Origin: a virus
DNA: 44,842 nucleotides
IMG/VR virus record: IMGVR_UViG_3300042892_001013
Location: 1-44,842 of that record
Direction: 5' to 3' (one strand)
Shown piece after piece: positions 22,954 through 42,092 of this stretch. The notes below the pieces were generated by a model, which saw only the letters and a program-made list of their open reading frames with translations, ran no database searches and was not told the DNA's origin. How positions within the stretch are numbered: position 1 is the stretch's first letter; every line of letters starts with the position of its first letter. A program made the translations under genes and the position numbers.

Positions 22954-23469
22954 ATGATTAATATGAAAGAATGGATGGAATTGGTTGGTTATCGAATTAC
23001 AGAGGGTAGTGCATACGGCTGGCAATGCTATGGTTCTGATGCATATGCATTAGATTCGTGGAATGGTGATCACGACGGGCATAGTTTCACAGTCATCTTT
23101 GATACCAAAGACCAAACAGTTTACGAAGTGCAGGTACACGACTATGTGCATAATCGTGCATACCGTATGATCAATCCAGACTTCCAAAAGAAAAATAAAA
23201 AAGAAGCTCGTCGTCGAGACGTCAACAAAGACGAAGCCTGGGACGATGTCAATTATATTGATCTAGAAGTAGATGACGACTTTATCCAAAAGTGTTTGGC
23301 TATTCAAGCAGGTGAAGATTATGATACAAAAGTGTCAGTTCCGTTGGAACTAGAAGATGATAAAATGTTTGAACTTATGCGTATGGCACACGAACAGGAC
23401 ATTACTCTAAACCAGCTGGTAGAAAATATACTGCGTAATATGATTGCCGAAAAAGAAATTACTGTTTAG
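22954..23469 (+). CDS. Phage protein with RHH-like C-terminus
   Basis: A 171-aa protein. The N-terminal domain (KEWMELVGYRITEGSAYGWQ ... DYVHNRAYRMINPDF) is unrecognised. A basic/acidic linker follows, and the end KVSVPLELEDDKMFELMRMA ... TLNQLVENILRNMI has the strand-helix-helix look of ribbon-helix-helix proteins. It might bind DNA and regulate early genes. SD AAGGA. Its last 11 nt overlap the convergent radical SAM gene, the boundary between plus-strand early and minus-strand clusters. Confidence 0.65.
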   Translation: MINMKEWMELVGYRITEGSAYGWQCYGSDAYALDSWNGDHDGHSFTVIFDTKDQTVYEVQVHDYVHNRAYRMINPDFQKKNKKEARRRDVNKDEAWDDVNYIDLEVDDDFIQKCLAIQAGEDYDTKVSVPLELEDDKMFELMRMAHEQDITLNQLVENILRNMIAEKEITV

Positions 23470-24346
23470 TAGCTTGGATGTCAAAGCCGTTGCGACAGGC
23501 ATCGGCTTTGCAAATTATAGAGTTTTGAACCCCTGTAAATTCTATTCCTAGTTTTCCAACAAGGCCACCTTGACCACAGTGGCCTCGTTTTATACGGCCC
23601 CAGGCATCAACGATTAGTTGTTCAACGCCGGCCATACACTGTTGTCCGGGAAACGTATTCTTTTTCTCAAGCATAAGAGTTTGAAAGTCTGAAAATTCTT
23701 CTTCTCCTGTGTCATTAACGTAAATCAAATCTCCGTGTTGGCGTTTTAATTTTACAGCGTGTTCAAGTTTGTATTCCATCGGCTGTTTGTTAATAGCGGG
23801 ATCTTCAAACAGCATCTTTCTATGAACGAGTTGATCGGGCCACATTTTTTTTATTTTAGTAATAGTATCTTCTAATTCTTGCCATCGGTCCGGCAACATA
23901 CTCACTGTTATACTTACGTTTACATTTTTCTTTTTAGCAGCATATAAGCATAGCATAAAATGACTGATCGGAGTGTGTTCTGAATGTACTTCTAGATTTA
24001 TACTGTCAACTGTATCTAACAGGGTTTTCCATTCTGCAATAGGCATACTGGCATTGGTTCGTATGCATACGTTACTGTTTTTTGTCTTGATGTGTTTTAT
24101 CAAATCCACAAGCCAGGGCCACTGAGTAACTTCCCCTCCTGTAAAATAATAATTACAGGTTTTGCCTAGGGTTTTGGCAAAGTCACTAACTTGATCAACA
24201 AATTTCAAACAGTGTTCGATGTTTGGCAAGTCAATACTGCCACTTTTTATAATATCAGGACAATAACTGCAATTGTAATTGCAGTGATTCATCAACCACC
24301 AGTCGATATAGAAATATCGATTGTCTCTAATACTGCGAAGTTGCAT
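23459..24346 (-). CDS. Radical SAM protein A
   Basis: A 295-aa radical SAM enzyme. CNYNCSYC (C22, C26, C29) binds the 4Fe-4S cluster, YYFTGGEVTQW is the SAM-binding GGE motif, and the C-terminal third has Cys residues (QQCMAGVEQ, KRGHCGQ, CKADACRNG) like a SPASM/twitch auxiliary cluster. Auxiliary-cluster enzymes usually modify peptides or proteins; the substrate here is unknown. It is the most downstream gene of the minus-strand cluster, directly abutting the AlgH-like gene, and overlaps the early plus-strand operon by 11 nt. Confidence 0.85.
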   Translation of the reverse strand: MQLRSIRDNRYFYIDWWLMNHCNYNCSYCPDIIKSGSIDLPNIEHCLKFVDQVSDFAKTLGKTCNYYFTGGEVTQWPWLVDLIKHIKTKNSNVCIRTNASMPIAEWKTLLDTVDSINLEVHSEHTPISHFMLCLYAAKKKNVNVSITVSMLPDRWQELEDTITKIKKMWPDQLVHRKMLFEDPAINKQPMEYKLEHAVKLKRQHGDLIYVNDTGEEEFSDFQTLMLEKKNTFPGQQCMAGVEQLIVDAWGRIKRGHCGQGGLVGKLGIEFTGVQNSIICKADACRNGFDIQATKQ

Positions 24347-24904
24347 CTAGGCCATCCAACTGTCAGTGGCCTGTTCTCCGCATAACTGCGTGGATTCTAT
24401 CCACATCTCTTTGGTATTCGTTTCTAAAAGCCAAACTGGATCAGGTGTTTTTAAAGTCAGCCAGCTTTGTTGTCTGCTCCACGGCGGATCGCCTAGTAGC
24501 TCGCCTTCAAGTTGTCCTGGGCCCCAGCTGCTTTGTCCAAAAAATATTCTAAAACGCTCTGGATAATCGTTGTCGGCTAGATGATGAAACATACCAACAT
24601 TGCTGGTCATTGACCAATCGGCATTGATCCTATGTGTTGAATCCATCTTCCAATCACTGTGATGTAACATCCATACTGTGTTGAGTCCCACTGGACCACC
24701 CCAATAGAGATTGAAATCTTGAGCCAGCTCTATGTTTATTTCTTTGAGGACGCTGTTTATTGAATGGCTTGTTGGGCGATTTACACAGAGTGCCAGAGAA
24801 CCTCGATTTGTACTATGAGTGACCAGTAACACTGTTTTGTCAAATCTTGAATCGCTCATGTTAGGAGGAGATATTAATAAATCTCCTTTTTCGATTCTAT
24901 GCAT
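24347..24904 (-). CDS. AlgH/YqgE (UPF0301) family protein
   Basis: A 185-aa protein matching the AlgH/YqgE family: GDLLISPPNMSDSRFDKTVL, GSLALCVNRPT, LYWGGPVGLNTVWMLH, and WGPGQLEGELLGDPPW. Bacterial members are regulatory or chaperone-like proteins of uncertain action, not enzymes. Full length and all blocks are present, so it is probably functional. It sits between the small basic protein and radical SAM A without gaps. A host-derived copy could influence redox or envelope regulation; this is not shown. Confidence 0.85.
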   Translation of the reverse strand: MHRIEKGDLLISPPNMSDSRFDKTVLLVTHSTNRGSLALCVNRPTSHSINSVLKEINIELAQDFNLYWGGPVGLNTVWMLHHSDWKMDSTHRINADWSMTSNVGMFHHLADNDYPERFRIFFGQSSWGPGQLEGELLGDPPWSRQQSWLTLKTPDPVWLLETNTKEMWIESTQLCGEQATDSWMA

Positions 24905-24910
24905 TCTAGA

Positions 24911-25153
24911 TCAACTCCAGTCTGGAAGTGGGCCGCCATATTTCTTGCCCTTGATTCTTTTGCCTTTTACTGTGGTGCGCTCATTGCCAATCTTGTGTGA
25001 TTTATTGCCGTGTCGACCACGATAGCCTTGGCTCTTGCAGCTGGCCAGTTGACTGGCACCTAGTGCAGCATTGGGTTTGCCGCTCGTGCAAAGAGCTCGG
25101 CTCGCGGGCTCTTCGTCTAATTCTTTGTTTTGGATAACTTCAAATATTCGCAT
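24911..25153 (-). CDS. Small basic protein, possible internal virion protein
   Basis: An 80-aa protein, MRIFEVIQNKELDEEPASRA, then ALGASQLASCKSQGYRGRHG and a Lys/Gly-rich end KGKKYGGPLPDWS. The start MRIFEVI matches MRAFEFL and MRFFEFL of the two candidate virion proteins. Related phage proteins with LASCK-x-GYR and GPLPD are in my memory without function. A TAAATA late box sits 4 nt before the ATG, giving a leaderless mRNA. A basic, late, DNA-binding internal head protein fits. A frame open 30 codons further up is ignored because promoter and N-terminal motif fix this ATG. Confidence 0.65.
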   Translation of the reverse strand: MRIFEVIQNKELDEEPASRALCTSGKPNAALGASQLASCKSQGYRGRHGNKSHKIGNERTTVKGKRIKGKKYGGPLPDWS

Positions 25154-25157
25154 CAAG

Positions 25158-25163
25158 TATTTA
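25158..25163 (-). promoter_or_regulatory. Late promoter box inside the radical SAM cluster
   Basis: The minus strand reads CTAATAAATACTTG and then the ATG at 25153 (4-nt gap). It directly follows the stop codon of radical SAM B and restarts transcription for the 25153-23459 genes. Confidence 0.55.
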
Positions 25164-26333
25164 TTAGGATTCAAAAGTTTTGTCGCCGGGCCAAAGAGGC
25201 AGTTTGGTACCTGGCGCTCTTTTAGGTATTTTACTGTCTGCACTGCTTACACAGCTAGGACTAATACAAGGTTTAGGGCCGTCAAAAAGCTGAAATCCTG
25301 TTTCTATATTACCTAACGGTGCATCGTGGCAACTATAGCTACGTTTAATGCTGCCGTCTGGTTCACGTATAATAATGCCTCTGTAGCCGCTTGAGCATTC
25401 CCAATCTGTAAACTTGTTAAAATTAAAAGCATTGAACCGTTCAGCTTGATCCATGTACCAAATCTTCTGTTCTTTATCTACGAACTCTACTTGAAAATGC
25501 TGTGGTATTTTACTGTGTTCTTGCTTGTAAATAGGATCTGGTGTTTTAAAGAATTTGGGTTCAGGACGTTTAACTAACTTGGTCTTGGTTGCTTTATCTT
25601 CAGTGAAGGCACGTTGCGGCATACCGTTGTGTAGACGTTTTAACATGTCAGGAGTATATCCATCAACTACACGACTAGCAGTGGGATCACTCTGAGGCTT
25701 TAGTGTAACATTGATGCCTTGATTGTGAAAGAACAGAGCATTTTCAAAATCACGTTCAAACCATTCAGGAACCATAACCTGATTAATAGTTATTTGAACA
25801 TCGTGTTGCTGGCATAGTATTAGTTTGTCGGCAAACTCCTGCATCTTCTCGGGTGTGTCTACGTGTTCTGTATGTAAACTAGCAGTGATACTAGCACGAT
25901 GAAATTTACTAACAGCAGGACAATACTTTTCTTCAAACCATTTAAGTGGTCTACTCATATTGCTAGTCATGTGTACGCTAGTATAGTTTGTGTTTGCTAC
26001 ATCATCATTTAGATAATTAAGGATATCAATATAACCAGGATGGAAGGTAGGCTCGCCGCCACTAAGACTAAAATGAAAACTGTTAAAATTGCGTTCTCTA
26101 GCTTGTCGTTTGATTTCATCTATTGTGCGTAAACACAGTTCGGTTGGTCTGTGGTCTTTTGTATCACTGCGGGCATAGGGCCAGCAATAGCTACAACGGT
26201 AATTACAATAACGTCCTAACAGCCAACTGACTGTAAAGAGATCTTTGTACAACATTGTACGTTGTCCTACACGAACAATATCGTTGTAGGGTATTTGGGT
26301 AAAGTCGTAGGCCGACCAACTTAAATCATTCAT
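25164..26333 (-). CDS. Radical SAM protein B
   Basis: A 389-aa radical SAM enzyme: CNYRCSYC (C43, C47, C50), FHFSLSGGEPTFHPG, and a C-terminal Cys set (WECSSGYRG, RSYSCHDAP, KPCISPSCVSS) that probably holds an auxiliary Fe-S cluster. The core/tail order is conventional. A basic 25-residue tail ends it (KIPKRAPGTKLPLWPGD). It overlaps the SDR gene by 8 nt, indicating coupled translation. The substrate is unknown; a peptide or protein is favoured by the auxiliary-cluster Cys. Confidence 0.85.
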   Translation of the reverse strand: MNDLSWSAYDFTQIPYNDIVRVGQRTMLYKDLFTVSWLLGRYCNYRCSYCWPYARSDTKDHRPTELCLRTIDEIKRQARERNFNSFHFSLSGGEPTFHPGYIDILNYLNDDVANTNYTSVHMTSNMSRPLKWFEEKYCPAVSKFHRASITASLHTEHVDTPEKMQEFADKLILCQQHDVQITINQVMVPEWFERDFENALFFHNQGINVTLKPQSDPTASRVVDGYTPDMLKRLHNGMPQRAFTEDKATKTKLVKRPEPKFFKTPDPIYKQEHSKIPQHFQVEFVDKEQKIWYMDQAERFNAFNFNKFTDWECSSGYRGIIIREPDGSIKRSYSCHDAPLGNIETGFQLFDGPKPCISPSCVSSADSKIPKRAPGTKLPLWPGDKTFES

Positions 26334-26880
26334 AAGGTTGTTGTAACGGATCTATACTAATTTCATTTACACAAATATCTTTTGGTTGTTCTACAATCCA
26401 TTTAATATATAGTGCGGCTTGAACAATGTCTAAACATTTTCTTGTAGGATGTTTAGATTGTACATTTGTTAAACTTCCAAAACTAACTAAGGTAATTTTA
26501 GGACCGTTATCCCAAACACCATTCATACCTAGTGTATTGCAGTAGTCTCTCAATGCTTTCTTTTCTGCGTTATACAACCAAGCGCCGCCTTTCTTCACAC
26601 GGTCAGTGGTAGATCCTATGCAAATGATTTGAAGTCTATGATTATTCTCTGTACATTTTTTGTAAACTGCATCTAATAAAATAGTTTGATTAAATTTATG
26701 TAAAGCACTACAGTTTATAAAGATATCATAATCTAATGTGAGATCCGCTAGTTTTTTCTGATCATCATTTTTTGTTAGATCAAAGCCTGTAGTACGGCTA
26801 GCAAAAAAAACATCTGGGTACAATTTAAATAATTCGGCAGCAAGGCCGTAATTTTTATTTCCTGCTACTAGTATTTTCAT
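26326..26880 (-). CDS. Short-chain dehydrogenase/reductase-like protein
   Basis: A 184-aa, SDR-like Rossmann protein. MKILVAGNKNYGLAAELF is a modified nucleotide-binding loop, YDIFINCSALH the N-S/A-G-type strand, IICIGSTTD the Ser of the triad, and WLYNAEKKAL the YxxxK pair (about Y103/K107). It is shorter than a typical 250-aa SDR, ending soon after the substrate loop. It could reduce or epimerise an intermediate made by neighbouring enzymes. It overlaps the genes on both sides (8 and 26 nt). Confidence 0.75.
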   Translation of the reverse strand: MKILVAGNKNYGLAAELFKLYPDVFFASRTTGFDLTKNDDQKKLADLTLDYDIFINCSALHKFNQTILLDAVYKKCTENNHRLQIICIGSTTDRVKKGGAWLYNAEKKALRDYCNTLGMNGVWDNGPKITLVSFGSLTNVQSKHPTRKCLDIVQAALYIKWIVEQPKDICVNEISIDPLQQPYE

Positions 26881-28036
26881 ATGATAATTCTGGTATTAAA
26901 GTTGCTAGATCTTGGTTGCGAGACTTGTCTAGTGCGTTTGTATAATGATAAAACTTAGGAAGTTTATGACTCCAGTCTTCTGCATTCATATAATCAATAA
27001 TTCCTTTGACTTTATCTATATGCAGATAAGGTTCTAATAATTTAACCACTTGTTCTTTTAGATGCTGTGGCAAGACCCGGATGTTTAATTCTTCCGGGTG
27101 ATTTAAAATATTAAAATAAATTCTATGTCCGTAGGGAACTGCCCAATCTATTAATTCGTTGAGGCGAAGTATATTATACATCTGTACTGTGCAATGGATC
27201 TCTATTGAACAATTTTTTAATGTTCTTATCTTTTCAAAGTTTTCTTGGATATGCTGCCAACTGCTGGGAAATCTAATATAACGATCAAGTTCTCCTGTTG
27301 CATCAATAGAACAATTCAATTGTACACGTTTAAAATGCGTCCACCGATCTAATAAATGTTTTGGAACATTAGTAAGATTTGTGTTGTATTTCAATCTAAT
27401 ATTTTTAGCAGTACCCCTATCTATAAAATAATCCAAGAGTTTGTGCTGTGCTTTAATAATTGTTGGCTCGCCGCCTGTTAGATATATTTCTTCTACAGTG
27501 TCAGCAATAAGATATAAATTTTCCCAAGTTTTTTCTCTTTCAGGCCAATCCATGTTGTTTAATCTATTGTATTCGCTTTGACTAAGAACTTCTCCTATCA
27601 AGGGCCATTCTGCTGTCCACATATTACTAGCATAAGGATTACACATACGACATTTTAGATTACACAAATTACTTAATCGAATGTCAACATATCTAATATT
27701 AAATGTCGCCTGGATCGGATACTCTCGGTCCGTCCCCCATTTATCGTTGGCTGCTTGTCTTGCACTTTTAATACCTGCATCTTCTTCTCGAAAACATCTA
27801 ACGCACATGTCAGGTCGTTCTCCATCTAAAAACTGCTGTCTTATTTTTGTATATGTAGGACTATTCCAAGCTTCTAACATATCATCACGTTGTATTTGAT
27901 ATGACGAGCCAGGACTTTTTAAAATGTTATTGTTTTTGGGATCGCTGTTGCAACAAACACGTAAATTTCCGCTGGCATTTGTAGCCAAATGCATCCATGG
28001 CAATACACAGAATGTTTTAGAAGTTATTTCATCCAT
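26855..28036 (-). CDS. Radical SAM protein C, SPASM-first layout
   Basis: A 393-aa enzyme whose N-terminal ~85 residues have the SPASM-like pattern (FCVLPWMHLATNASGN, CC at 28-29, EAWNSPTY, MCVRC at 78-81), followed by the radical SAM core with CNLKCRMC (C125, C129, C132) and YLTGGEPTII. In textbook SPASM proteins this Cys domain is C-terminal, so the order is permuted. Three other genes in the cluster share this plan. It overlaps the genes on both sides. Likely acts on a peptide or protein substrate, unknown. Confidence 0.85.
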   Translation of the reverse strand: MDEITSKTFCVLPWMHLATNASGNLRVCCNSDPKNNNILKSPGSSYQIQRDDMLEAWNSPTYTKIRQQFLDGERPDMCVRCFREEDAGIKSARQAANDKWGTDREYPIQATFNIRYVDIRLSNLCNLKCRMCNPYASNMWTAEWPLIGEVLSQSEYNRLNNMDWPEREKTWENLYLIADTVEEIYLTGGEPTIIKAQHKLLDYFIDRGTAKNIRLKYNTNLTNVPKHLLDRWTHFKRVQLNCSIDATGELDRYIRFPSSWQHIQENFEKIRTLKNCSIEIHCTVQMYNILRLNELIDWAVPYGHRIYFNILNHPEELNIRVLPQHLKEQVVKLLEPYLHIDKVKGIIDYMNAEDWSHKLPKFYHYTNALDKSRNQDLATLIPELSYENTSSRK

Positions 28037-29259
28037 TTTTTTAAAAACTCAAATTTTTCAAACGTTTCATCTCTTGCGCCGTCAAGTGTTTTATTATACT
28101 CTAAAAACTTATTCCATTTAGTGTTATCATATTGTTCAGATCCATTAAAAAATCTAACAACATCTCTAATACTATTGCCTACATTTAATTGTAAACCGTT
28201 CAAGTTGTCTTGATGTTTTAGATAAGATTCTAGTTTTACTTTAATTTCTTGCCGGGCTTCACCGGTCCAGATTCTACTGTCTAAGAACTTTGGCCAAGTG
28301 ACAAAATGAACTCCTGTGAACACCTTCATATTTTTGAACCATTCGAACGTTTCGGGGACATAGTAAATGTTCAGCGCCTGTACTGTTATTTTTCCCTGTA
28401 TAAAAACATTAGGTAATTCTTTCTGCAATAGTCTTATGTTATCTTCGATTACTTTGCTATCTGCTCCTGATCTAATATATTCATTAAGATCTGGAGGCCC
28501 ATCTAAACTCACTGCTGCAATAACTTTTTTAAATTTTTTCCAGTAATCAACTACATTGTATTTTTTATTAGATAGCATACTTAAATTAGTTGCATAATTT
28601 AAAGTAATCTTATCAGCGCGATGCATTACACTTTCAAGAATTCTATAATGATCATTGTCGTATAAAGGTTCGCCGCCCGCAAACCAAATTTCATCTACAT
28701 TACTCATCAACTCTGGTAAGTTTTCAAAAAATTCTTCCGGATAACTCTTTAACAATGATTTTTTAGTTAGATTAAGATCTATCATTTCTTGTTGCCAACT
28801 ATCTTCGTGTAGGTGTGATATTTTTTTATAATCTTCAAACCAACGTGTACTATCCATAGGGTGGCACATACGACATTTAAAATTGCAAAGATTGCTAAGT
28901 TTAAATTCTATCCAAGTAGGCTTATTGTTTAAACTATAATCTTCGTTAATAGATTTTAAATTTGTTTCTGCATTAATTACCTGTCTGCCCACTGAAGAGC
29001 TGTTGTACTTCATACGAAGACTTTGGGCGCCAACATCTTCCAGTTTCCAGCAGACATCACAGCGTTCGTTTCTAACGCCGTTTATAAGGTCGTTGCGAAG
29101 CTGTTTCATTTCTTCGTTGTTCCAGGCCTGAAGCAAAGTTTCTTTTTTAATATTTGATAATGCTGGCAAACTTCTGCAGCAGGCCTTTATACTACCGTCA
29201 GTTTTAGTAGATAGGTGTGTAAACGGAGCAATACAAAAAGTTTCTTTTTTTACATCCAT
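28024..29259 (-). CDS. Radical SAM protein D, SPASM-first layout
   Basis: A 411-aa paralogue of C. N-terminal FCIAPFTHLSTKTDG, CC (27-28), LQAWNNEEM, CDVC (67-70); core CNFKCRMC (C125, C129, C132, the same positions as in C), and WFAGGEPLYD. It continues through the usual barrel strands (VSLDGPPDLNEYIRSG, ALNIYYV). It overlaps radical SAM C by 13 nt and the oxygenase fusion by 10 nt, so expression is tightly linked. Confidence 0.85.
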   Translation of the reverse strand: MDVKKETFCIAPFTHLSTKTDGSIKACCRSLPALSNIKKETLLQAWNNEEMKQLRNDLINGVRNERCDVCWKLEDVGAQSLRMKYNSSSVGRQVINAETNLKSINEDYSLNNKPTWIEFKLSNLCNFKCRMCHPMDSTRWFEDYKKISHLHEDSWQQEMIDLNLTKKSLLKSYPEEFFENLPELMSNVDEIWFAGGEPLYDNDHYRILESVMHRADKITLNYATNLSMLSNKKYNVVDYWKKFKKVIAAVSLDGPPDLNEYIRSGADSKVIEDNIRLLQKELPNVFIQGKITVQALNIYYVPETFEWFKNMKVFTGVHFVTWPKFLDSRIWTGEARQEIKVKLESYLKHQDNLNGLQLNVGNSIRDVVRFFNGSEQYDNTKWNKFLEYNKTLDGARDETFEKFEFLKKWMK

Positions 29260-31217
29260 CCGCCTTCTCCGTGTATAATCATATGGTATCTTGTCTCGTT
29301 GCTTTTATTAATTACAATATGGAAATAGCCAATTCTTATTCTATTGGTATCACCAGCCTCCCAAGGAACCTGTCCTAAGTATTCCCAATTCTTGTTCCAA
29401 AAATGCATTTCGCAGCCTTCTGGATTGATTATAGCCATGTTGGTTGCCCAGGTATTTGGATCAGGATTATCAGAATGCAGTCCTATCATTCCGCCTGGAT
29501 CTAGCTTCATTATTCGAAGTCTATGGTATCTGTCTTTAAACTTGTTTTCTTTAAACCAATTAACCAAGTTTGGGCAGTGTTCAATTGCTTCTTGAGTCCA
29601 TTCGTAGGGAGCTGAGTCATTATTGTCATAGCCGTACACTTCATACCCTTCAGTTTTATCATACCCTAATCCGTGCAATACAAAACTTGACCAACCTCTG
29701 TGTAATTGCACTCCTTTAACATAATTATCACTTCTATGACGTGTGAATAAATTAAGATTCTCTAAAGATTTGATCTCATCAACAAAGTCTTTGTAGGGTA
29801 ATTTAATGTCAATTGTTTTGTAAAAATTTCCCACAGCATTCGGTAAACTATTTGGTCCGGAACTTCTATGATTGTTGATTCCAACGCCTGACCAAGAAAA
29901 ATTTAAATTATAGGATAGCAGTTCTGTTAGGTAAGCCTGAAGACTGTCGTCTCGATACAGTTGAGTTAAACTAGGAATGTAGCGTAGTACATTACTAAAC
30001 CAAACATAGGGATGACTAGAAGTTTTCACGGCCTGTTTAATATTATCGTCTAGATGAATTATATCACCTTTAACAAAGTGAAAATTACAAGTTTTAATAA
30101 TATTCCATTTTTCTTTAATTTCAAATAGAAGTTTATCTTCATCTACTGATTGGCCTTTTGAACCAAATCTAATTAGACTATAGTCTTTGTTAAATTCTTC
30201 AACAATGTCTGAATAGCTGTCAAAGTTATAAAGATTATCTAAAATGTATTTTTGAAAGTCTAGACAGTTTTGATTTACATCAACAAAATAGATATTTGAA
30301 TTAGGCTGAAGATCAAATTTCGCAAGATAACTCCACGGAATAATTCCGCTGGCCACAGCAATAAAACAATCAACTTTTAAATTGTTATCAATTGATGTAG
30401 ATTCTGTATTATAGGCCCAAAATCCTGCTTCGGGATTTAATAATGTTTTCCATTTGATTAAAAATTCTTTGTGGCCTTTTACTTGCGTTTCTATTTTGTT
30501 AATTTCAGATAACGGTTTATCTATCAATGCTTCGAGATCATTTGGTCTATTTAAATGATAGGTATAAGTTCTATTGTTTCTAAGTTCTTGAGGTAAGTTG
30601 TGTACAGTGTAATTTTTGTTAATAACAAATTTAATTAGATCATGAAAAAGACAAAATTCTGAATTTTTCTTTTCTATTTGCACAGTTTCTTCAGTTCCTT
30701 TTTTTATCCACAAAGGAGTATAGTTGTCGTGTATATTTGATTCACTTCGGTCGATTAGCGGCCAACTGGTATCACTATATTCAAATGTCTCTTCTATTGT
30801 AAAACCCTCAGTTACTATGTCGGTTATAACTCTCTTAGAAATTATAAGGCATTGCTCATGCAATCCAAAGAAAGATTTCCAGTTATTGTTTTTAATTGAA
30901 TGATCGATGATATGTCCAGCTATTGCAGGATCTGTTTTTATAAATTCTAATAGACCGTTGGCTACAGGGACTGGATTTAAGAAAATAGTTCCCGATGGTA
31001 CTATAAACAAAAAATCTGCAGATTCTATACTTGCCTGTTTTATTATTGTGTTTATATTATCCGAAGCAATAATAGAACTGGCAGTACTATTATCTATTAC
31101 TTCTTTTGCCAAAGTATCACCGGTTGTCTTTGACCAATAAAAGGTTAGATCAGCAAAACTTTTTGTTATTCCTTTTGCTAATTTTCTAGTATCCCAGTAT
31201 CCAAACAGTATTTTCAT
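29250..31217 (-). CDS. Three-part protein: GT-like, methyltransferase-like, 2OG-Fe(II) oxygenase
   Basis: A 655-aa protein. Residues 1-190 look like a GT-A-type Rossmann domain (MKILFGYWDTRKLAKGI ... ADFLFIVPSGTIF) lacking a DxD. Residues ~270-440 look like a SAM-dependent methyltransferase fold (VDCFIAVASGIIPW, NIYFVDVNQNCLDF, FVKGDIIHL). The C-terminus is an aspartyl/asparaginyl beta-hydroxylase-type oxygenase: GLHSDNPDP (H581, D583), YFHIVIN (H633), ETRYHM (R643). ATG 31217 has SD AAGGA. The hydroxylase part, among radical SAM enzymes, suggests hydroxylation of a peptide residue or small intermediate. Confidence 0.7.
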   Translation of the reverse strand: MKILFGYWDTRKLAKGITKSFADLTFYWSKTTGDTLAKEVIDNSTASSIIASDNINTIIKQASIESADFLFIVPSGTIFLNPVPVANGLLEFIKTDPAIAGHIIDHSIKNNNWKSFFGLHEQCLIISKRVITDIVTEGFTIEETFEYSDTSWPLIDRSESNIHDNYTPLWIKKGTEETVQIEKKNSEFCLFHDLIKFVINKNYTVHNLPQELRNNRTYTYHLNRPNDLEALIDKPLSEINKIETQVKGHKEFLIKWKTLLNPEAGFWAYNTESTSIDNNLKVDCFIAVASGIIPWSYLAKFDLQPNSNIYFVDVNQNCLDFQKYILDNLYNFDSYSDIVEEFNKDYSLIRFGSKGQSVDEDKLLFEIKEKWNIIKTCNFHFVKGDIIHLDDNIKQAVKTSSHPYVWFSNVLRYIPSLTQLYRDDSLQAYLTELLSYNLNFSWSGVGINNHRSSGPNSLPNAVGNFYKTIDIKLPYKDFVDEIKSLENLNLFTRHRSDNYVKGVQLHRGWSSFVLHGLGYDKTEGYEVYGYDNNDSAPYEWTQEAIEHCPNLVNWFKENKFKDRYHRLRIMKLDPGGMIGLHSDNPDPNTWATNMAIINPEGCEMHFWNKNWEYLGQVPWEAGDTNRIRIGYFHIVINKSNETRYHMIIHGEGGWM

Positions 31218-31218
31218 A

Positions 31219-32343
31219 TTAGTCCTTGTATAGGTATTCAAAACAAGTTCTATGATCTAATCCTCTTAGCTCATCTATTTTATTCAAATATTCTTTTAGT
31301 TCTTTTAGTTTTTGTGGATCGTGTTTGAGATTTTTAGTCATATTTTTAATTCTATCATTGGGATCATTTTTATATTGTGCTGTTATTTGATCTATTACAC
31401 TGTGTGGTAAAGCATCCAATGTCATAAAGATTGGCCAAAATATAATACTTACATTAAAGTTAAGTGAAAAATTAAATTGATTTGAGTATAATCTAATTTT
31501 ATCAATTTCAAAAATATTTAAAGCACCCACTGCTATTTGTAATTTGACCTTGATATTTTTTGATCTTGTAGAAAGCAGTTTATAATTTTCTAAAAGGCTG
31601 TCATGATTTGTGGGGAATCGTATATATTCATTAATTTGTTTGCCGCCATCTATGCTTAGGCTTAGATTAACTTGTTCAAAATGAGACCACATATCGATCC
31701 ACTCTTGATCGATGTAAGTTCCGTTGGTATCATACCAAAGAACAATATTTTTTGCTAGATCTTTTTCAATTAAAAATTCTATAATTTGTCTATGTTTTTT
31801 TATTAGTAAAGGTTCTCCTCCACTAAAGTACAACACTCGTACCTTTGGAACCCATTCTTGATAGTTGTCTAAAAAACTAGGATGTAGGGGCCAGCGAACA
31901 TTTTCATCCTTCTTAAAAAATTTGAGATGTTCAAAATTTTCATATTCATCATACCATGTATTGCTGTTGTCAGGAGTACACATTATACATTTTAAATTAC
32001 ACAGATTCCCCAATCTCAAATCAACTGCCCATGGAAAATCAACGGCCTGTGTTGGATACGATTTTTTTTCTATTTGAGACCATTTTTGATTTTCAAAACT
32101 TCGACGGCTTGGAATACTTTTTTCTTCGTTAAGTCTACAGGTATCACACTCTGTGGGCCATTTGTTGTTTAAAAATTGTTCTCGAACACGTTGATAATCT
32201 TGACCTTGCCATATGTCTTCTAGGCTATTTTTGTTTACATGAAGATTGCCTAGTGTCTTTGATTGACAACACAGTCTAACTTTTCCGTGATTGGTTGTAC
32301 TTAAATTAACAAAAGGTGCTACACAAAATATATTTTTATTCAT
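31219..32343 (-). CDS. Radical SAM protein E, SPASM-first layout
   Basis: A 374-aa paralogue: FCVAPFVNLSTTNHG, CC (25-26), EDIWQGQDY, CDTC (66-69), then CNLKCIMC (C115, C119, C122) and YFSGGEPLLI. Shorter than D, chiefly by a smaller linker. It has very A+T-rich codon use. It overlaps radical SAM F by 8 nt, and its stop is followed by TATG, the start of the oxygenase fusion. Confidence 0.85.
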   Translation of the reverse strand: MNKNIFCVAPFVNLSTTNHGKVRLCCQSKTLGNLHVNKNSLEDIWQGQDYQRVREQFLNNKWPTECDTCRLNEEKSIPSRRSFENQKWSQIEKKSYPTQAVDFPWAVDLRLGNLCNLKCIMCTPDNSNTWYDEYENFEHLKFFKKDENVRWPLHPSFLDNYQEWVPKVRVLYFSGGEPLLIKKHRQIIEFLIEKDLAKNIVLWYDTNGTYIDQEWIDMWSHFEQVNLSLSIDGGKQINEYIRFPTNHDSLLENYKLLSTRSKNIKVKLQIAVGALNIFEIDKIRLYSNQFNFSLNFNVSIIFWPIFMTLDALPHSVIDQITAQYKNDPNDRIKNMTKNLKHDPQKLKELKEYLNKIDELRGLDHRTCFEYLYKD

Positions 32344-33736
32344 TAAAAATATCCTTCATTTCTGGAAAAGTATCATAGAAAGATATTCCTCTATGTGCAT
32401 CTATTTTTTCTAGATAGTCTTTCATTTCCGGCAATCGTTGACTCCAGTCTTCTGACTTCATAAAGCTGATCATGCCTCGAAGTCGTTTCACTCCGTAGCT
32501 GTTTGCTAGCCAACGTTCTTTAGTTATCTTTCCTCTATCTTTTTCAGATAGACACAATTCCCAGTTTTCTTCAAACCAAGGAATAAACTCTTCGTACTTG
32601 CGTTCACATTCATCTTTGAACCATTGTGGCAATACTTTTACATTTAAGAAAGCTGGCCAATAGACAAAGTGATAGTTTATACCTCCTGCTCCTAACGGCC
32701 ACATATTAACTTTCTTGAAGTTCTGTTGCAGTTTCCATTTCAAGAAGTCTGGAATGTAATATATGTTTAGGGCATTTACAGCGCAGGCAATAGTTACTTC
32801 TACATTGTCTGTGGTCTGCTCGTCAAGTATACGGAATACTTGTTGTGTACGTTCCCACTTGCTGGGATACCGAATGTATTCATTCATAGCACCTATGCTG
32901 TCTACGCTGTAATGGAATCGTACAATTTTAAAGTGGCTCCATAACTCAAACAGATCTTCACGCCATTCTACTCCATTGCTGTTGTAGCGAATCTCAATGT
33001 CTTTGGCACGACCCTGTCGAATAATCTCTTCCAGGATCTCGTAGTGTTCGTCGATGATTAGGGGTTCTCCGCCTGCAAAGTAAACCTGTTGCATATGTGG
33101 AATCTGTTCATAGAACTGTTGCCAGAACACAGGATTTTGTTTGTGCCAATTATAACTACTGCCGTTGATACTGCCCTTGTTATCCCATTGCCATATTTTT
33201 TTAACTCCCTCACTTTCCAGTGTGGGGAACACCTTCTGCCAATCTTTGATCCAGCCACTGCTGTCATGTGGGCTGCACATGATACAGGCCAATTGGCATT
33301 TGGTTCCAAAACGTAGATCAATGTAGGCCAGCTGTGGGGGAACACTACCGTCTTCGTTGGTTTCGTTGATCAACTTGTCTACGCTTACACGTTGTTTCCA
33401 ATACTCAGTTTCCCATTGACGTTTGCTATTATGACCAGCAGCTTCTTCTTTATAACATTTAGTACAGCTAGGAGGTTGTTCGCCGGCCAACATCTGCTTA
33501 CGCACATTCTTCATGTAGTTGCTATTCCAAGCTGTTTGAAAGTCTGTGTTGTTGAGATTGCTTGGGAGACCTTCGTCGTCTTTGAGTACTCCTACTTGTG
33601 CTCCTCCAAGTTTTTTATCGTTGCTGGCACCTACTCCACTGGCATTGGCTGTACAGCACACTCGCATACTGCCGTCTGGTCGAGTGCTTAGATGTACCCA
33701 GGGTAGGATACAAAATGTTTTACTAGGATAACTCAA
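32336..33736 (-). CDS. Radical SAM protein F, SPASM-first layout
   Basis: A 466-aa paralogue, the longest: FCILPWVHLSTRPDGSMRVC, CC (27-28), a ~40-residue insert rich in Gly/Asn, CTKC (91-94), core CQLACIMC (C147, C151, C154), YFAGGEPLII. An extra ~40 residues follow the ALNIYYI block. Its first 25 residues are nearly the same as those of the collapsed remnant at 34519, so that remnant came from an F-like gene. It lies 1 nt after the FkbM gene. Confidence 0.87.
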   Translation of the reverse strand: MSYPSKTFCILPWVHLSTRPDGSMRVCCTANASGVGASNDKKLGGAQVGVLKDDEGLPSNLNNTDFQTAWNSNYMKNVRKQMLAGEQPPSCTKCYKEEAAGHNSKRQWETEYWKQRVSVDKLINETNEDGSVPPQLAYIDLRFGTKCQLACIMCSPHDSSGWIKDWQKVFPTLESEGVKKIWQWDNKGSINGSSYNWHKQNPVFWQQFYEQIPHMQQVYFAGGEPLIIDEHYEILEEIIRQGRAKDIEIRYNSNGVEWREDLFELWSHFKIVRFHYSVDSIGAMNEYIRYPSKWERTQQVFRILDEQTTDNVEVTIACAVNALNIYYIPDFLKWKLQQNFKKVNMWPLGAGGINYHFVYWPAFLNVKVLPQWFKDECERKYEEFIPWFEENWELCLSEKDRGKITKERWLANSYGVKRLRGMISFMKSEDWSQRLPEMKDYLEKIDAHRGISFYDTFPEMKDIFNE

Positions 33737-33737
33737 T

Positions 33738-34376
33738 TTATGACCTTACAAAAAATAGATTAAAATTCTCAACCCTATGAACTTCCCAACCTAACGGTTT
33801 CATAAAATTAACAAATCGCCAGAAAGGAACATCCGATTCAATACAAATGAGCTCTAATTCTGTTAGAGTCTCCCACGGAATACTAACCATTAACTCAAGA
33901 TTAAATGATTCAACATCTATACTTATAAAATTATAATTAGTATTATGAAATATATCTTTTACTTTTATAGTATCTACTATAGTTTCTAATACTTTACCGT
34001 AATAAATGTTTTCATTTCTCAATATTTCTTTAGTGGAGTGTTCAAAAGAAAACCCGCCAACACCATTGCCGACTTCAAAGTGATCCATTCGATGTGTTTC
34101 GTAGAATTTCATTTGAGCTGGATAGTTATTGGGAACCGCAGCAGCTTCTATCAGTCTTATATTTGTTGTTAGATTTCTTTCTTCATAGTTGCTTTTTAAT
34201 CTTTTAAACACCCAAGGAGAAGGTTCAATGACAGTACCCTGCCAACCTAGTTCAGCTAGAGCAAGAGTGTTGCTTGCCGCCACACCATCAAATGCACCTA
34301 TGTCTAGATAACGGCCTATGCGTCCGTTAAAGAAATTTAATATAATTTCTTGTTCGTTGTTTTGTGAATATTTCAT
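33738..34376 (-). CDS. FkbM-type methyltransferase
   Basis: A 212-aa FkbM-family SAM-dependent methyltransferase: RYLDIGAFDGVAASNTLALA binds SAM, GTVIEPSPWVFKRLK follows, then YNFISIDVESFNLELM. FkbM enzymes O-methylate sugars, polyketides or other small molecules, often in surface glycan loci. Its ATG overlaps the stop of the 48-aa remnant (ATGA). Its first 16 codons are repeated 991 bp away as a stub at 35302-35367, evidence of a local duplication. Confidence 0.85.
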   Translation of the reverse strand: MKYSQNNEQEIILNFFNGRIGRYLDIGAFDGVAASNTLALAELGWQGTVIEPSPWVFKRLKSNYEERNLTTNIRLIEAAAVPNNYPAQMKFYETHRMDHFEVGNGVGGFSFEHSTKEILRNENIYYGKVLETIVDTIKVKDIFHNTNYNFISIDVESFNLELMVSIPWETLTELELICIESDVPFWRFVNFMKPLGWEVHRVENFNLFFVRS

Positions 34377-34442
34377 ATTTTAAATTTTCGTGCTTTCATA
34401 TCGTGTGTGCAGAAACAAGAATTAAATGGACATCTTACAGGT
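34329..34442 (-). repeat. 114-nt direct repeat, copy A
   Basis: It matches copy B (35320-35433) with offset 991. The first 98 nt (34329-34426) are identical and three mismatches follow. It covers the 3' end of a radical SAM frame and the 5' end of the FkbM gene. Confidence 0.95.
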
Positions 34443-34519
34443 ATACTGCCATCGGGTCTAGTGCTAAGGTGTACCCAGGGTAAGATACACCAAGTTTTTG
34501 AAGGATATTTTGATTGCAT
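34373..34519 (-). pseudogene. Collapsed radical SAM gene, 48 codons
   Basis: An in-frame chimera. Residues 1-26 (YPSKTWCILPWVHLSTRPDG within it) match the N-terminus of SPASM-first radical SAM F. Residues 29-48 (RCPFNSCFCTHDMKARKFKI) equal the C-terminus of radical SAM G. Everything between, about 350 codons including the CxxxCxxC core, is missing. It ends by ATGA overlap with FkbM. It has no radical SAM activity, but could still be translated as a five-Cys peptide. It lies within and next to direct-repeat copy A, so recombination is the likely cause. Confidence 0.8.
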
Positions 34520-34529
34520 GTAATATGTA

Positions 34530-35300
34530 TTAAATAATTTTTTTAAGAGATTCGTTTATGATTTCTCCTAATTTTTTATTTCCTAGATTAGAAAAATGTC
34601 TGAGATAAGATCTAGGCAGCTCGATTTCCGAACTTAAATTCTTCAATGAATCATTTTTAATTTCATAGTATAAATTTGATGGCAAATCTAATCGAGTGGC
34701 CTTTGGCAAATTTTCAGAATTGGCATGCGGTTCAAATAATGAAAATACAAAAGATTTTAAATTATATTGTTCTATAGTTTGATTTATATAAGCCAAAGAA
34801 AATTTAACTAAATTTTTGTATGTAATTGATTCTAATATATCAAGTTTAAAATCAGTTGGTAAGGATGGGATTCCATAGTGATGTTCGCATATAGCGTCCA
34901 AGGTAGTAGGATTCTTTGAAAATACAGATTGCGGAGGGATAGAAAAAGCAGACCTGTGTTTTATTAACAGCTCTCTTCCCTCAATCTCTTTAGATGAATC
35001 TTCTCGCCAAGAAAAATCTTGTTTTCTTAAAACAAATCGAGGTTCTGAAGTTTCCTGAATAATTAACATCGAGTAATCTTTTAATTTGCCGTTGGAATGC
35101 AAATCGTTGAGAGTCTCAGCAAAAGTGGTATAGCCACCACCACCATATGCAAAAACATCAATTTCTAAATCTTTTAAGCATTTTAAAGAATCATACCATC
35201 CGTACGATGAAACAATGCTCTCTTTAATTGATGATTTTTCATCTCTAGCGTAAGAACCTTGAGTAAGACTACATCCTAATATTAAAACTTTTTTACTCAT
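34530..35300 (-). CDS. SGNH/GDSL-type hydrolase-like protein
   Basis: A 256-aa protein. VLILGCSLTQGSYARDE gives block I with the candidate nucleophile Ser11, YGGGGYTTF the block-II Gly, and the end YLRHFSNLGNKKLGEIINES the block-V His with the usual following Gly and helix. SGNH enzymes remove acyl groups from sugars or lipids. ATG 35300 has SD AAGGA; a seven-residue upstream extension is less likely. The gene lies precisely between the two direct-repeat copies, so it seems to have been inserted between radical SAM G and FkbM. Confidence 0.65.
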   Translation of the reverse strand: MSKKVLILGCSLTQGSYARDEKSSIKESIVSSYGWYDSLKCLKDLEIDVFAYGGGGYTTFAETLNDLHSNGKLKDYSMLIIQETSEPRFVLRKQDFSWREDSSKEIEGRELLIKHRSAFSIPPQSVFSKNPTTLDAICEHHYGIPSLPTDFKLDILESITYKNLVKFSLAYINQTIEQYNLKSFVFSLFEPHANSENLPKATRLDLPSNLYYEIKNDSLKNLSSEIELPRSYLRHFSNLGNKKLGEIINESLKKII

Positions 35301-35301
35301 C

Positions 35302-35367
35302 TTATTTTTCCTTGATAACAAAGAAATTTAATATAATTTCTTGTTCGTTGTTTTGTGAATATTTCAT
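35302..35367 (-). pseudogene. 5' stub of the FkbM methyltransferase gene
   Basis: The frame encodes MKYSQNNEQEIILNFF, identical to the FkbM N-terminus at 34376, then diverges (VIKEK) and stops at 35302-35304. It starts by ATGA overlap with the stop codon of radical SAM G, the same junction that the complete copy has with the remnant. It lies in direct-repeat copy B and marks the original G-FkbM junction. Confidence 0.85.
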
Positions 35368-35433
35368 ATTTTAAATTTTCGTGCTTTCATATCGTGTGTG
35401 CAGAAACAAGAATTAAACGGGCATCTTACCGGT
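35320..35433 (-). repeat. 114-nt direct repeat, copy B
   Basis: Partner of copy A (34329-34442), 98 nt identical (35320-35417) and three mismatches thereafter. It contains the end of radical SAM G and the FkbM stub. Recombination between the copies would delete 991 bp, including the SGNH gene. Confidence 0.95.
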
Positions 35434-36389
35434 TCAAAGGGCCAAGTTAGTTCATCAAGATTATCTCTCTTCCAATTTCCTATTGGTGGACGTACATAAC
35501 ACATGGCATCCCTTCGTATGTCTCCATTTTGTTCTAGATATAATGTATCTATACCAACAAAACAATTCCATCCCTTCCAATTATTTTGTTTTAGAGAAAT
35601 AACTTCTTCAGCGTTTTGTATCTTGATTTCTTTGGTAACTGAGTTTCGCCATAATGTACTTTCCCAATTGGGTCCTTTTGGGGTATTTATTACCTTGCCG
35701 GCCTTGGGAAAGAATGTTGGATTGTCTTCTAACCATTTCCATTCTAGATCAGAATAAGGCCATCGATCATGGTTGCCTTGTTCCCCTATTAATGTTAACG
35801 GTCTTGCTCGTATTAATTCAAACTTGCCATTTTCTACCATATAGTCAATGGTGTCTAAACACTTTTGCCAATGACTGGGTAACATCAGCATCAGTGCATG
35901 ACTTTTTACATTGTTTTCTGTCAGTACATTCAATACATCAGTGCAATGTTCCTTTTCTGCAAACTCTGCATGAACACTCAAGGTAATATATTCAAAATAT
36001 TTTCCATACTCTTGCCACCATCTAACAGTTCTAACTCCGTTGGTAACTAGACAAACAGTATTACCTAAAGAATATATTAATTCTATAACTCTTTCAATGT
36101 CTTTCCAAAGTGTTACTTCTCCGCCTAGCAGTTCAAATTGAATTTTCTTCTTGTTGTAGGGGGCACTTTTATATATCTGATCAATTTTATTAATAATTTT
36201 AGCAGCCTGTTCATAACTGGGCCAAGGGTATGTTCCGTCTTTACATCCTGGGGGGCAATAAACACAATTATTGGTACAGATGTTTCCTACCTGAAAACAA
36301 ACTCTGAGATAATCTGATTGCTCTGCTGTTTGTTGATCAAAAGGTTTGGTATTTTTTAATAACCATTGATTGTAGACATCAGTTGTCAT
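35364..36389 (-). CDS. Radical SAM protein G
   Basis: A 341-aa enzyme with conventional order: CTNNCVYC (C38, C42, C45), FELLGGEVTLW, a long barrel, then an auxiliary-cluster tail (WNCFVGIDT, DAMCYVRPP, RCPFNSCFC). The Cys after the cluster motif (PPGC) is unusual. Its 3' 70 nt are repeated 991 bp downstream as part of the remnant. It begins at ATG 36389, overlapping a short frame with a similar Cys tail. Substrate unknown; peptide-type by analogy. Confidence 0.85.
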   Translation of the reverse strand: MTTDVYNQWLLKNTKPFDQQTAEQSDYLRVCFQVGNICTNNCVYCPPGCKDGTYPWPSYEQAAKIINKIDQIYKSAPYNKKKIQFELLGGEVTLWKDIERVIELIYSLGNTVCLVTNGVRTVRWWQEYGKYFEYITLSVHAEFAEKEHCTDVLNVLTENNVKSHALMLMLPSHWQKCLDTIDYMVENGKFELIRARPLTLIGEQGNHDRWPYSDLEWKWLEDNPTFFPKAGKVINTPKGPNWESTLWRNSVTKEIKIQNAEEVISLKQNNWKGWNCFVGIDTLYLEQNGDIRRDAMCYVRPPIGNWKRDNLDELTWPFEPVRCPFNSCFCTHDMKARKFKI

Positions 36390-36450
36390 TAGTAATTTTT
36401 CTCTCTCTTATATCGTGTATGCATACACATCCCATATCTACATATTTCAC
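36379..36450 (-). CDS. 23-codon frame resembling a radical SAM C-terminal tail
   Basis: Starts GTG at 36450 with SD AAGGAG inside the end of radical SAM H. It encodes VKYVDMGCVCIHDIRERKIT and then NDN, and ends at 36379. The block CVCIHDIRERK matches CFCTHDMKARK at the end of radical SAM G. It is either the decayed tail of a lost radical SAM gene or a small coupled peptide. It overlaps the G start by 11 nt. Confidence 0.4.
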   Translation of the reverse strand: MKYVDMGCVCIHDIRERKITNDN

Positions 36451-37616
36451 TTAAATTGCTCCTTGAATGCATCATATTTAGTACCGCAGGTTTTAGCACA
36501 GACTGCCAGTTTGCCGTCAGCACAACTAGATTTGCCCCAACTCTCGGGAATAACTTCTTGAAAGTATCTGCCATCAACTATGCTTTCTAGACTGTGATCA
36601 ATGGCATTTAATGTGTCTTTGCCCACTTCATCGATGGCCGTCCATATTTGACCACCGTGCTCATTCCAATACCAAACATACATCTGATTGGCTGTCCAGC
36701 AGCAGGGTTGTACAATGCCCTCTGCTGAAATGTAAAGACTTTTTTCTTCTTGCACCTTGCATTTTATTTCTGCTTCGTCCCAGACACGTTCCATGGGTTT
36801 TTTCTTTAGAGGGTCTCTGTGGAACGTCTGTGAGTACAGCGTGTCTTTTACATCGACCACTCTGCTGGGCAAAAACTTCAAGGGTTGATTGTTTTTACTG
36901 ATCTTGCTGAGTTCGTCGATTACTGAATTTCTGTATTTGGGATTGGTTGGAGGTTGCAACAGTGTAGTAGCCAGTCCTCGACGATTGGCAGCCTGATGCA
37001 TTTCTTTGGTCATCCCGCTGCTATTACTGAAAAATCTAGCAGACTTCTTGTATTGGAAACGCTCAAAACCCATGTCTTTGCTAAGAGCTTCTGCAGCTTC
37101 TACCTGATGTTCATTGTGAGCAAACACAATGTAGTCCCAACGAGCACGACCACCTGCGGCAATAAAAGCTCGTGCATTTTCCATTATCTTTGACCATACA
37201 GTGCCCTGTCGGTACAGGTGGTTAGTGTCTTCTAGGCCGTCTAGACTGAATACCACATAGCCCTTGGGTCCTATCACCCGAGCCAACTCTGCCCACCATT
37301 CAGGTCGCTTGGCTGAAGCATTAGTATGCATACTAAGGTTGATGTTGGGGTTGGTAGTTCTAAAATAACTCAGTGCTTCTAGAGTATCTCGAGCTGCGAT
37401 TGGATCTCCAAAATTGCCGCAGAGATAGATCCTATCCAACTGCCTAACAAACTCAGGATCAAATATCTTTTCTATGGCTGCTAGATCAAGTTCAGCGGCG
37501 GGCATCTGTGGGTTAACTTCTCCCCCATTGATGTTGCGTGAGCACATGGGACAACTGGCATTACAGGCTGCTGTGATTTCTAGATGTACTGTTTTAATTT
37601 CGTTGTATCTGTACAT
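36447..37616 (-). CDS. Radical SAM/SPASM protein H
   Basis: A 389-aa SPASM-type radical SAM enzyme in the usual order: LEITAACNASCPMCSRN (C18, C22, C25), LCGNFGDPIA in place of GGE, VVFSLDGLEDTNHLYRQG, then SPASM-like IVQPCCWTA, SSCADGKLAVCAKTCG. Enzymes with GNFGDP-like motifs are frequent in phages and cyanobacteria and of unknown substrate. ATG 37616 is chosen because it starts 2 nt after the stop codon of the upstream gene; a frame four codons longer overlaps it. It is the first radical SAM gene of the cluster in transcription order. Confidence 0.88.
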   Translation of the reverse strand: MYRYNEIKTVHLEITAACNASCPMCSRNINGGEVNPQMPAAELDLAAIEKIFDPEFVRQLDRIYLCGNFGDPIAARDTLEALSYFRTTNPNINLSMHTNASAKRPEWWAELARVIGPKGYVVFSLDGLEDTNHLYRQGTVWSKIMENARAFIAAGGRARWDYIVFAHNEHQVEAAEALSKDMGFERFQYKKSARFFSNSSGMTKEMHQAANRRGLATTLLQPPTNPKYRNSVIDELSKISKNNQPLKFLPSRVVDVKDTLYSQTFHRDPLKKKPMERVWDEAEIKCKVQEEKSLYISAEGIVQPCCWTANQMYVWYWNEHGGQIWTAIDEVGKDTLNAIDHSLESIVDGRYFQEVIPESWGKSSCADGKLAVCAKTCGTKYDAFKEQFK

Positions 37617-37618
37617 GA

Positions 37619-37978
37619 TCAATCCCAATACATTTTATTGTTCTGTTGATAAAAATAATCTTTTTTAACATTAAGCATATCTAGGTAATCTACTCTATGA
37701 TGCATCCCTATGCCATTCTTATTGGCAGTCAATCTTACATAGTTAGCAGAACCGGCCTCAGGACGAGCAGTAGTTGTTTTATGTAGAATACTCCAGTGTA
37801 CTCCAGAATAAACTGCATTGATGCCCTGTGGTTTATCCCAGGTACTGATGAATTCGTTGAACTCGTCAATGGTAAAGGAATATTCAGTTACCAAAGAATC
37901 ACTGATCCTTACACTGAAACTCACCTTGTTTTTTTCTTTAAACAGGTATATTTTTAAATTGCTGGAGAAGGCTAACAT
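37619..37978 (-). CDS. Protein of 119 aa, unknown
   Basis: MLAFSSNLKIYLFKEKNKVS, then DEFNEFISTWDKPQGINAVY and MHHRVDYLDMLNVKKDYFY. An alpha/beta protein; the block HKTTTARPEAGSANYV is distinctive but not of a family I know. It is encoded between the 73-aa gene (3 nt upstream) and radical SAM H (2 nt downstream). The tight spacing shows it belongs to the cluster, perhaps as an accessory or substrate-binding factor. Confidence 0.6.
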   Translation of the reverse strand: MLAFSSNLKIYLFKEKNKVSFSVRISDSLVTEYSFTIDEFNEFISTWDKPQGINAVYSGVHWSILHKTTTARPEAGSANYVRLTANKNGIGMHHRVDYLDMLNVKKDYFYQQNNKMYWD

Positions 37979-42014: not shown

Positions 42015-42092
42015 GGGCCCCTAGCTCATGTTGGTTAGAGCAGTGGACTCATAATCCATTGGTGCCGTGTTCGACTCACGGGGGGCCCACCA
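42015..42092 (+). tRNA. tRNA with CAT anticodon (Met or Ile2)
   Basis: Acceptor GGGCCCC pairs with GGGGCCC; D stem GCTC/GAGC; anticodon loop CTCATAA; T arm CCGTG-TTCGACT-CACGG; encoded ACCA end. The paired 1-72 position argues against initiator tRNA. CAT could be elongator Met, or Ile(AUA) if the C is lysidinylated. Confidence 0.9.

Follow-up and report, generated by a model that had tools for sequence, protein, structure and literature searches.

An island of eight radical SAM genes in an aquatic phage fragment: a conserved core, exchangeable cassettes, and a possible role in fibre decoration

Modules of radical S-adenosylmethionine (SAM) genes have been noted in T4-like phages since 2010, and we found no tested function for them. 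The Campylobacter phages CP220 and CPt10, described in 2010, carry an interchangeable five-gene radical SAM module, which follows a putative base plate lysozyme gene at a distance of a few genes (PMC2853527). Radical SAM cassettes were reported in 2020 in the host recognition cluster of the pelagimyophages, of which Mosig EXVC030M is a cultured example (PMC7029224), and in 2017 a T4-like environmental genome, TARA_ERS488813_N000010, was found to carry 12 radical SAM genes (PMC5332604). Here, we report the analysis of an island of eight radical SAM genes in the IMG/VR record IMGVR_UViG_3300042892_001013, which was analyzed over its entire length of 44.8 kb and is referred to below as the window. 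As a virus record with large relatives that carry T4 gp23, the window is considered viral and not chromosomal; it represents part of the genome of an aquatic phage.

The island is modular, a core of five genes (GTlike, MTlike, rS8, rS6, and rS2) enclosing exchangeable AT-rich cassettes. Read along the minus strand from position 40559 to position 23459, the gene order is GTlike, MTlike, u74, u119, rS8, rS7, SGNH-like, FkbM, rS6, rS5, a gene for a 663-residue fusion protein, rS4, rS3, SDR-like (short-chain dehydrogenase/reductase), rS2, a small open reading frame (ORF), AlgH, and rS1. The core genes are:

39648..40559, minus strand: GTlike, conserved gene at the head of the island, predicted GT-A (glycosyltransferase) fold with an invariant DxD motif (VDGDN), from an AlphaFold2 (AF2) model and a fold search
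38203..39651, minus strand: MTlike, Rossmann/methyltransferase-like, conserved (65 of 80 related loci)
36447..37628, minus strand: rS8, radical SAM protein with a GNxGDP motif (PF04055, 1e-8)
32336..33736, minus strand: rS6, radical SAM protein with an N-terminal twitch domain, most conserved gene of the island (NF033640, 437 bits)
25164..26333, minus strand: rS2, radical SAM protein with four conserved C-terminal cysteines (PF04055, 1.5e-12)

The CP220/CPt10 module resembles this island in that it belongs to a T4-related phage and combines several radical SAM genes with glycosyltransferase-like genes and an amidinotransferase gene (PMC2853527). However, its proteins are distant (24% for rS8, over part of the protein), orthologues of rS6 and rS2 were not found there, and neither a conserved core nor a chromosomal counterpart has been described for it. 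The pelagimyophage cluster is similarly hypervariable and adjacent to tail-fibre genes, with cassettes for glycosyltransferases, Asp_Arg_Hydrox proteins, nitroreductases, carbamoyltransferases, and radical SAM proteins, but Mosig harbors fewer radical SAM genes, no match to rS6 or rS2, and a match to only 1 of 76 cassette families. A hypervariable island beside tail-fibre genes, as in the pelagimyophages, was found in many relatives of the window, the fibre block not being seen in the window fragment itself. TARA_ERS488813_N000010, compared by description only, is also T4-like and rich in radical SAM genes, which were however discussed as Fe-S proteins and not as a pathway (PMC5332604). The same core occurs in clusters of some Bdellovibrionota, a group of predatory bacteria; these clusters differ in being chromosomal, devoid of gp23, and patchily distributed. 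In searchable open-access papers, we encountered no account of this core, of its Bdellovibrionota counterpart, or of the insertion footprint presented below.

Conserved core, exchanged cassettes, and an insertion footprint

Relatives were the best 80 of 128 viral contig matches to rS6, and rS6 identity was at least 69% in these 80 loci. The T4 capsid gene gp23 was detected in 15 of the 23 large relatives, which include contigs of up to 400 kb, and a 181-kb relative encodes gp20, gp21, gp23, gp18, gp17, and gp6/gp25-like proteins. No match to gp23 was obtained in a near-identical 72.6-kb contig. The phage of the window is thus considered as T4-like by kinship with the large gp23-bearing relatives, the search having been made in relatives only.

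Complete islands (n = 34) contain 4 to 10 radical SAM genes each (median of 7) in 9 to 17 kb. Among their 426 junctions between neighboring genes, 293 are overlaps, 406 join genes located on the same strand, and 4 leave at least 150 nucleotides (nt). Clustering of the radical SAM genes is not due to chance. A match to rS8 was present in all 80 loci, the clustered family being represented in 79, and rS2 aligned at 68–91% over 18 relatives. A second, independent scan anchored on rS8 identified 33 loci, with rS6 nearby at an identity of at least 55% in 27 of them and of 46% in one; the remaining five contigs end before rS6 could be reached. Since rS6 was recovered by a scan anchored on another gene, the linkage was not produced by the choice of the query. 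The ratio of nonsynonymous to synonymous substitution rates (dN/dS) was 0.02–0.04 in rS6 and rS2, with values reaching 0.22 in other genes. An earlier interpretation made from the DNA letters, the sequence-only reading, had proposed a single linked tailoring pathway, which scattered or decayed homologues would have contradicted. Synteny across the 80 and 33 loci, purifying selection, and intact enzyme genes support that proposal.

Exchange of the cassettes was apparent from the closest relatives. Three of them (L003, L004, and L005) are 92–97% identical to the window in rS6 and 93–96% in rS2, and none has a close relative of rS3, rS4, rS5, the fusion gene, FkbM, or rS7; all six genes are kept in a fourth relative, L002. 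In the window, the guanine-plus-cytosine (GC) content of the AT-rich stretch is 0.30–0.39 versus 0.40–0.47 in its surroundings. The GC content of the core was higher than that of the genes in between in 30 of 31 unique islands (means of 0.372 versus 0.329; Wilcoxon p of about 2e-9, for islands that are not fully independent). These results agree with both the higher A+T content and the separate acquisition previously proposed for this part of the island. Cassette families include Asp/Asn hydroxylases, nitroreductases, FkbM and other methyltransferases, GDSL proteins, and QueC/PP-loop proteins. The genes that accompany the core in the window are:

37982..38206, minus strand: u74, conserved 74-residue protein (42 of 80 loci)
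37619..37978, minus strand: u119, conserved small protein (10 of 80 loci by tblastn, 12 loci by clustering)
35364..36389, minus strand: rS7, cassette radical SAM protein (PF04055)
34530..35300, minus strand: SGNH-like hydrolase, named by motif only, no Pfam match
33738..34376, minus strand: FkbM-type methyltransferase (PF05050, 4.4e-7)
31219..32343, minus strand: rS5, cassette N-twitch radical SAM protein (NF033640, 304 bits)
29250..31241, minus strand: fusion of glycosyltransferase-like, Rossmann/methyltransferase-like, and Asp/Asn beta-hydroxylase parts (PF05118, 1.1e-6, residues 488–656)
28024..29259, minus strand: rS4, cassette N-twitch radical SAM protein (NF033640, 339 bits)
26855..28036, minus strand: rS3, cassette N-twitch radical SAM protein (NF033640, 402 bits)
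26326..26880, minus strand: SDR-like Rossmann protein (one weak, sub-threshold NCBIfam match)
24911..25153, minus strand: small basic ORF, 80 residues, with the motif PNAALGA..SCKSQG..KYGGPLPDW
24347..24904, minus strand: AlgH/DUF179 (PF02622, 1.3e-31)
23459..24346, minus strand: rS1, radical SAM protein (PF04055, 31.5 bits)

All eight radical SAM genes, located between positions 23459 and 37628, display an open frame, a CxxxCxxC motif, and a match to PF04055 above the cut-off, indicating that the cluster is real. Seven of them had been called intact, as we confirmed, and rS8 had been set apart as an odd eighth. The latter distinction does not hold: 74 of 93 relatives have GN[LYF]GDP where rS8 has GNFGDP, so that the motif is a trait of the family; decay of rS8 was rejected on this basis, and the number of intact genes is eight. 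With respect to the curated cut-off of 170 bits for NF033640 (N-terminal twitch radical SAM proteins), rS3, rS4, rS5, and rS6 are full members (304 to 437 bits). Membership was not obtained for rS1 (21.6 bits), rS2 (39.7 bits), or rS8 (50.9 bits), and rS7 was not among the matches listed. A literature search identified no characterized member of NF033640. Concerning the tailoring enzymes, the names AlgH, FkbM, and hydroxylase were confirmed by Pfam matches (PF02622, PF05050, and PF05118, respectively), whereas SDR, SGNH, and the two N-terminal parts of the fusion, assigned by eye, are readings of motifs devoid of Pfam support. The SDR-like gene is conserved in 27 of the 80 loci. AlgH was found in the near-identical contig L001 and otherwise in a single type of relative, L004.

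The AF2 model of GTlike (predicted local distance difference test score of 90.6) resembles GT-A transferases (VIA Z score of 9.9 over 137 residues; Foldseek, 1e-4), and residues D64 and D66 of its DxD motif are invariant in 27 relatives. Based on modelled fold and motif, GTlike is assigned to the GT-A proteins with a DxD motif. MTlike had no profile match in the PDB and was named a methyltransferase by eye.

The region of the SGNH-like gene contains an insertion footprint:

35320..35433, minus strand: 114-nt direct repeat, copy 1, end of rS7 followed by an FkbM copy truncated after its first 48 nt
34329..34442, minus strand: 114-nt direct repeat, copy 2, junction of the rS7 end with the FkbM start
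34373..34519, minus strand: scar, vestigial chimeric ORF of 48 residues, rS6-like start fused to the end of rS7

The two copies of the repeat are 97% identical and spaced by 991 nt. The junction that they contain, between the end of rS7 and the start of FkbM, corresponds to the gene order still present in L002. The SGNH-like gene and the chimeric ORF are located between the repeats. The latter ORF consists of the first 23 codons, approximately, of an rS6-like gene (77% over 81 nt) and of the last 22 codons of rS7 (98% over 109 nt). In the simplest reading, a segment from a putative donor, comprising the SGNH-like gene and the 5' portion of an rS6-like gene, would have been inserted with duplication of the target junction.

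Linked fibre genes and a counterpart in Bdellovibrionota

In many relatives, the island is preceded by a tail-fibre block located upstream and in the same orientation, which includes putative transferases of its own. Within the limits of the available DNA, about one-half of the loci anchored on rS8 show the order fam44-fam21-fam15-fam13-fam14-fam24-GTlike-MTlike-u74-rS8 (fam, protein family). Family 44 matches a PHROG tail-fibre family (E-value of 7e-9) and, weakly, Peptidase_G2. Family 21, which matches no established protein family, was present in all 15 phage records searched, usually upstream of the island and in its orientation. A fold search with family 21 in BFVD returned three matches, one of which is named as an uncharacterized protein of an uncultured phage. 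Families 13 and 14 marginally resemble glycogenin (E-value of 0.04). When solved structures were searched with profiles of rS6, rS2, GTlike, MTlike, and families 13 and 14, no strong relatives were revealed, the best matches (SkfB, viperin, anSME, and glycogenin) all being at marginal E-values.

Scanning of genome contigs identified rS6 orthologues in metagenome-assembled genomes (MAGs) of Bdellovibrionia and Bacteriovoracia. Many of these Bdellovibrionota orthologues are surrounded by relatives of rS8, rS2, GTlike, and MTlike, with identities of 52–60% for rS6, 56–65% for rS2, and 42–49% for rS8. Distribution of the core is patchy: two Bdellovibrionota classes were searched, and rS2 was detected in 15 of 144 genomes for one class and in 5 of 129 for the other. 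Nineteen of the 76 non-core cassette families recur in the Bdellovibrionota radical SAM regions, versus one each in Mosig and CP220, for regions that differ in size. The possibility that the Bdellovibrionota copies are T4-like prophages was rejected since gp23 was not found in these genomes. In a Bdellovibrionales genome (G038, locus L120), the order rS6-GTlike-rS2-fam21-fam15-fam13-fam14-fam3 was found behind pheT, the latter gene being named by eye; G038 is the only one of the Bdellovibrionota with the fibre block. A literature search on radical SAM proteins in Bdellovibrio returned nothing on their function.

In the rS6 tree, the phage sequences form one clade (100/98) within the bacterial diversity, as rooted by very long outgroups, and L120 and the Planctomycetota-assigned L102 branch adjacent to this clade. 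Contigs carrying rS6 were also assigned to Neisseriaceae (L101) and Acidimicrobiaceae (L119); these two contigs and L102 may be of either phage or bacterial origin. Two contigs harboring both gp23 and rS6 in MAGs assigned to Gammaproteobacteria (L115) and Chloroflexi (L118) are probably misbinned phages. Large separate radical SAM clusters were also observed in Bdellovibrionota (L159 to L167, in G024, G030, G034, and G032); the rS6 profile has as many as 24 matches in one genome, and the clusters contain PP-loop, carbamoyltransferase-like, and amidinotransferase-like genes.

Possible roles of the island

None of the 441 island proteins contains two or more membrane segments according to a simple hydropathy scan, and PF02397 initiating phosphoglycosyltransferases were absent from 17 phage records. 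Together, these observations argue in favor of a cytoplasmic acceptor and against assembly of a surface polysaccharide. In combination with the near absence of room for a peptide precursor, they favor decoration of an acceptor. Our tentative proposal, which we prefer without considering it as established, is that the island encodes a cytoplasmic pathway whose product is a decoration that varies and is probably of the sugar type, with phage fibre proteins as its most likely carriers. The core enzymes would perform fixed steps, and the swapped cassettes (radical SAM proteins, oxygenases, FkbM, SGNH-like, and others), exchanged between core genes by recombination, would vary the product. The soluble-looking enzymes would act on an acceptor in the cytoplasm, and the sugar-derived decoration would be hung on the fibre proteins of families 44 and 21, encoded just upstream in many relatives. 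The decoration might vary receptor binding or shield the fibres.

Several observations weigh against this proposal. The window contains none of families 44, 21, 15, 13, 14, and 24, and in one phage record (G001) family 21 is encoded far from the island on the opposite strand. The model of family 21 had no significant match in the PDB, and its position is what suggests that it may be a virion fibre. Most of the core-bearing Bdellovibrionota, including all of G024 to G034, lack family 21, so that the acceptor must differ in these bacteria. Sugar-nucleotide genes are few, with single UDPG/GDP-mannose dehydrogenase and CTP_transf_3 families. Finally, nucleotidyltransferases, which share the GT-A fold, were also among the VIA fold matches of GTlike.

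The sequence-only reading had left the substrate between a peptide, a virion protein, and a surface glycan, stating that no substrate gene was obvious. This holds for the window, but the relatives offer a candidate in the co-oriented upstream tail-fibre block, making the virion protein the best of the three options, and the earlier interpretation as a whole is partly supported. Modification of the host cell surface during infection, by O-antigen or capsule conversion blocking superinfection, is unlikely in our view: glycosyltransferases, FkbM, occasional sugar-nucleotide genes, a hypervariable site near tail fibres, and, outside the island, a GtrB-like GT2 (5224–5940 of the window) would fit this role, but the lack of multi-span proteins in the islands and of PF02397 in the phage records weakens it. 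To our knowledge, surface-conversion systems require membrane partners, and no membrane flippase, polymerase, or initiating transferase was found. The same role has been proposed for pelagimyophage glycosyltransferases (PMC7029224). We similarly doubt that the radical SAM enzymes act directly on side chains or on the backbone of a protein or peptide, in a maturation resembling that of ribosomally synthesized and post-translationally modified peptides (RiPPs), the substrate being u74 or a virion protein. SPASM/twitch radical SAM enzymes are often peptide-directed, Asp/Asn hydroxylases are co-encoded, and u74 adjoins rS8 in most of the loci that contain it and rS2 in L059. Yet only the 4 junctions mentioned above leave room for an unlisted precursor, no precursor-like family recurs, and no short precursor with a leader and a variable core was found. 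The u74 protein itself is uniformly conserved, devoid of conserved cysteine, and missing in about half of the loci; conservation over its whole length makes it an unlikely RiPP precursor.

A free small molecule, antibiotic-like or aminocyclitol-like, is an even less probable product. Amidinotransferase-like, carbamoyltransferase-like, PP-loop, and nitroreductase cassettes do resemble those of natural-product clusters, and several of these families also occur in the Bdellovibrionota clusters, but no transporter or resistance gene was recognized and the island is linked to the fibre block. DNA hypermodification is known in phages, and ThyX or ThyA is encoded convergently beside the island in several relatives. 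Nevertheless, modification of the phage DNA bases by the island is highly improbable, as we recognized there no kinase, glycosylase, or transferase of the known hypermodification types and the cassettes are too variable among near-identical cores for a base used genome-wide.

Returning to fibre decoration, the combination of a conserved core, cassette exchange, and fibre linkage narrows the question to a few genes amenable to testing (rS6, rS2, rS8, GTlike, and family 21). It also suggests an ability of phages to vary what is shown to their hosts in chemistry as well as in sequence. Bdellovibrio bacteriovorus recognizes its prey through phage-fibre-like MAT proteins (PMC10769870). A speculative extension, to which we give little credence at present, is that phages and predatory bacteria share a radical SAM-based glyco-tailoring that chemically diversifies fibres binding hosts or prey, the core being responsible for attachment and the cassettes for variable end groups; if true, this would be a chemical counterpart of tail-fibre variation.

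Additional observations in the window and in another record

The N-terminal half of MTlike contains 41-residue tandem repeats at positions 39158–39471, with a unit of 123 nt and an identity of up to 89%. The small ORF at 24911–25153 (SGKPNAALGA-SCKSQG-KYGGPLPDW-type motif), which adjoins rS2, belongs to no Pfam family and has a 77% identical copy in L004. Outside the island, the window encodes a PA14/GLEYA-domain protein (8911–9879), possibly a carbohydrate-binding adhesin, and a class I/II aminotransferase (10158–11369; PF00155, 1e-59). Three tRNA genes (Met-CAT, Arg-TCT, and Leu-TAA) lie in a row on the plus strand (42015–42290); a minus-strand ORF at 42146 overlaps them and is probably an artefact. 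In the 255-kb record of Vibrio phage K566 (L081), four annotated radical SAM genes are close together, with genes for PagP and a nicotinamide phosphoribosyltransferase nearby.

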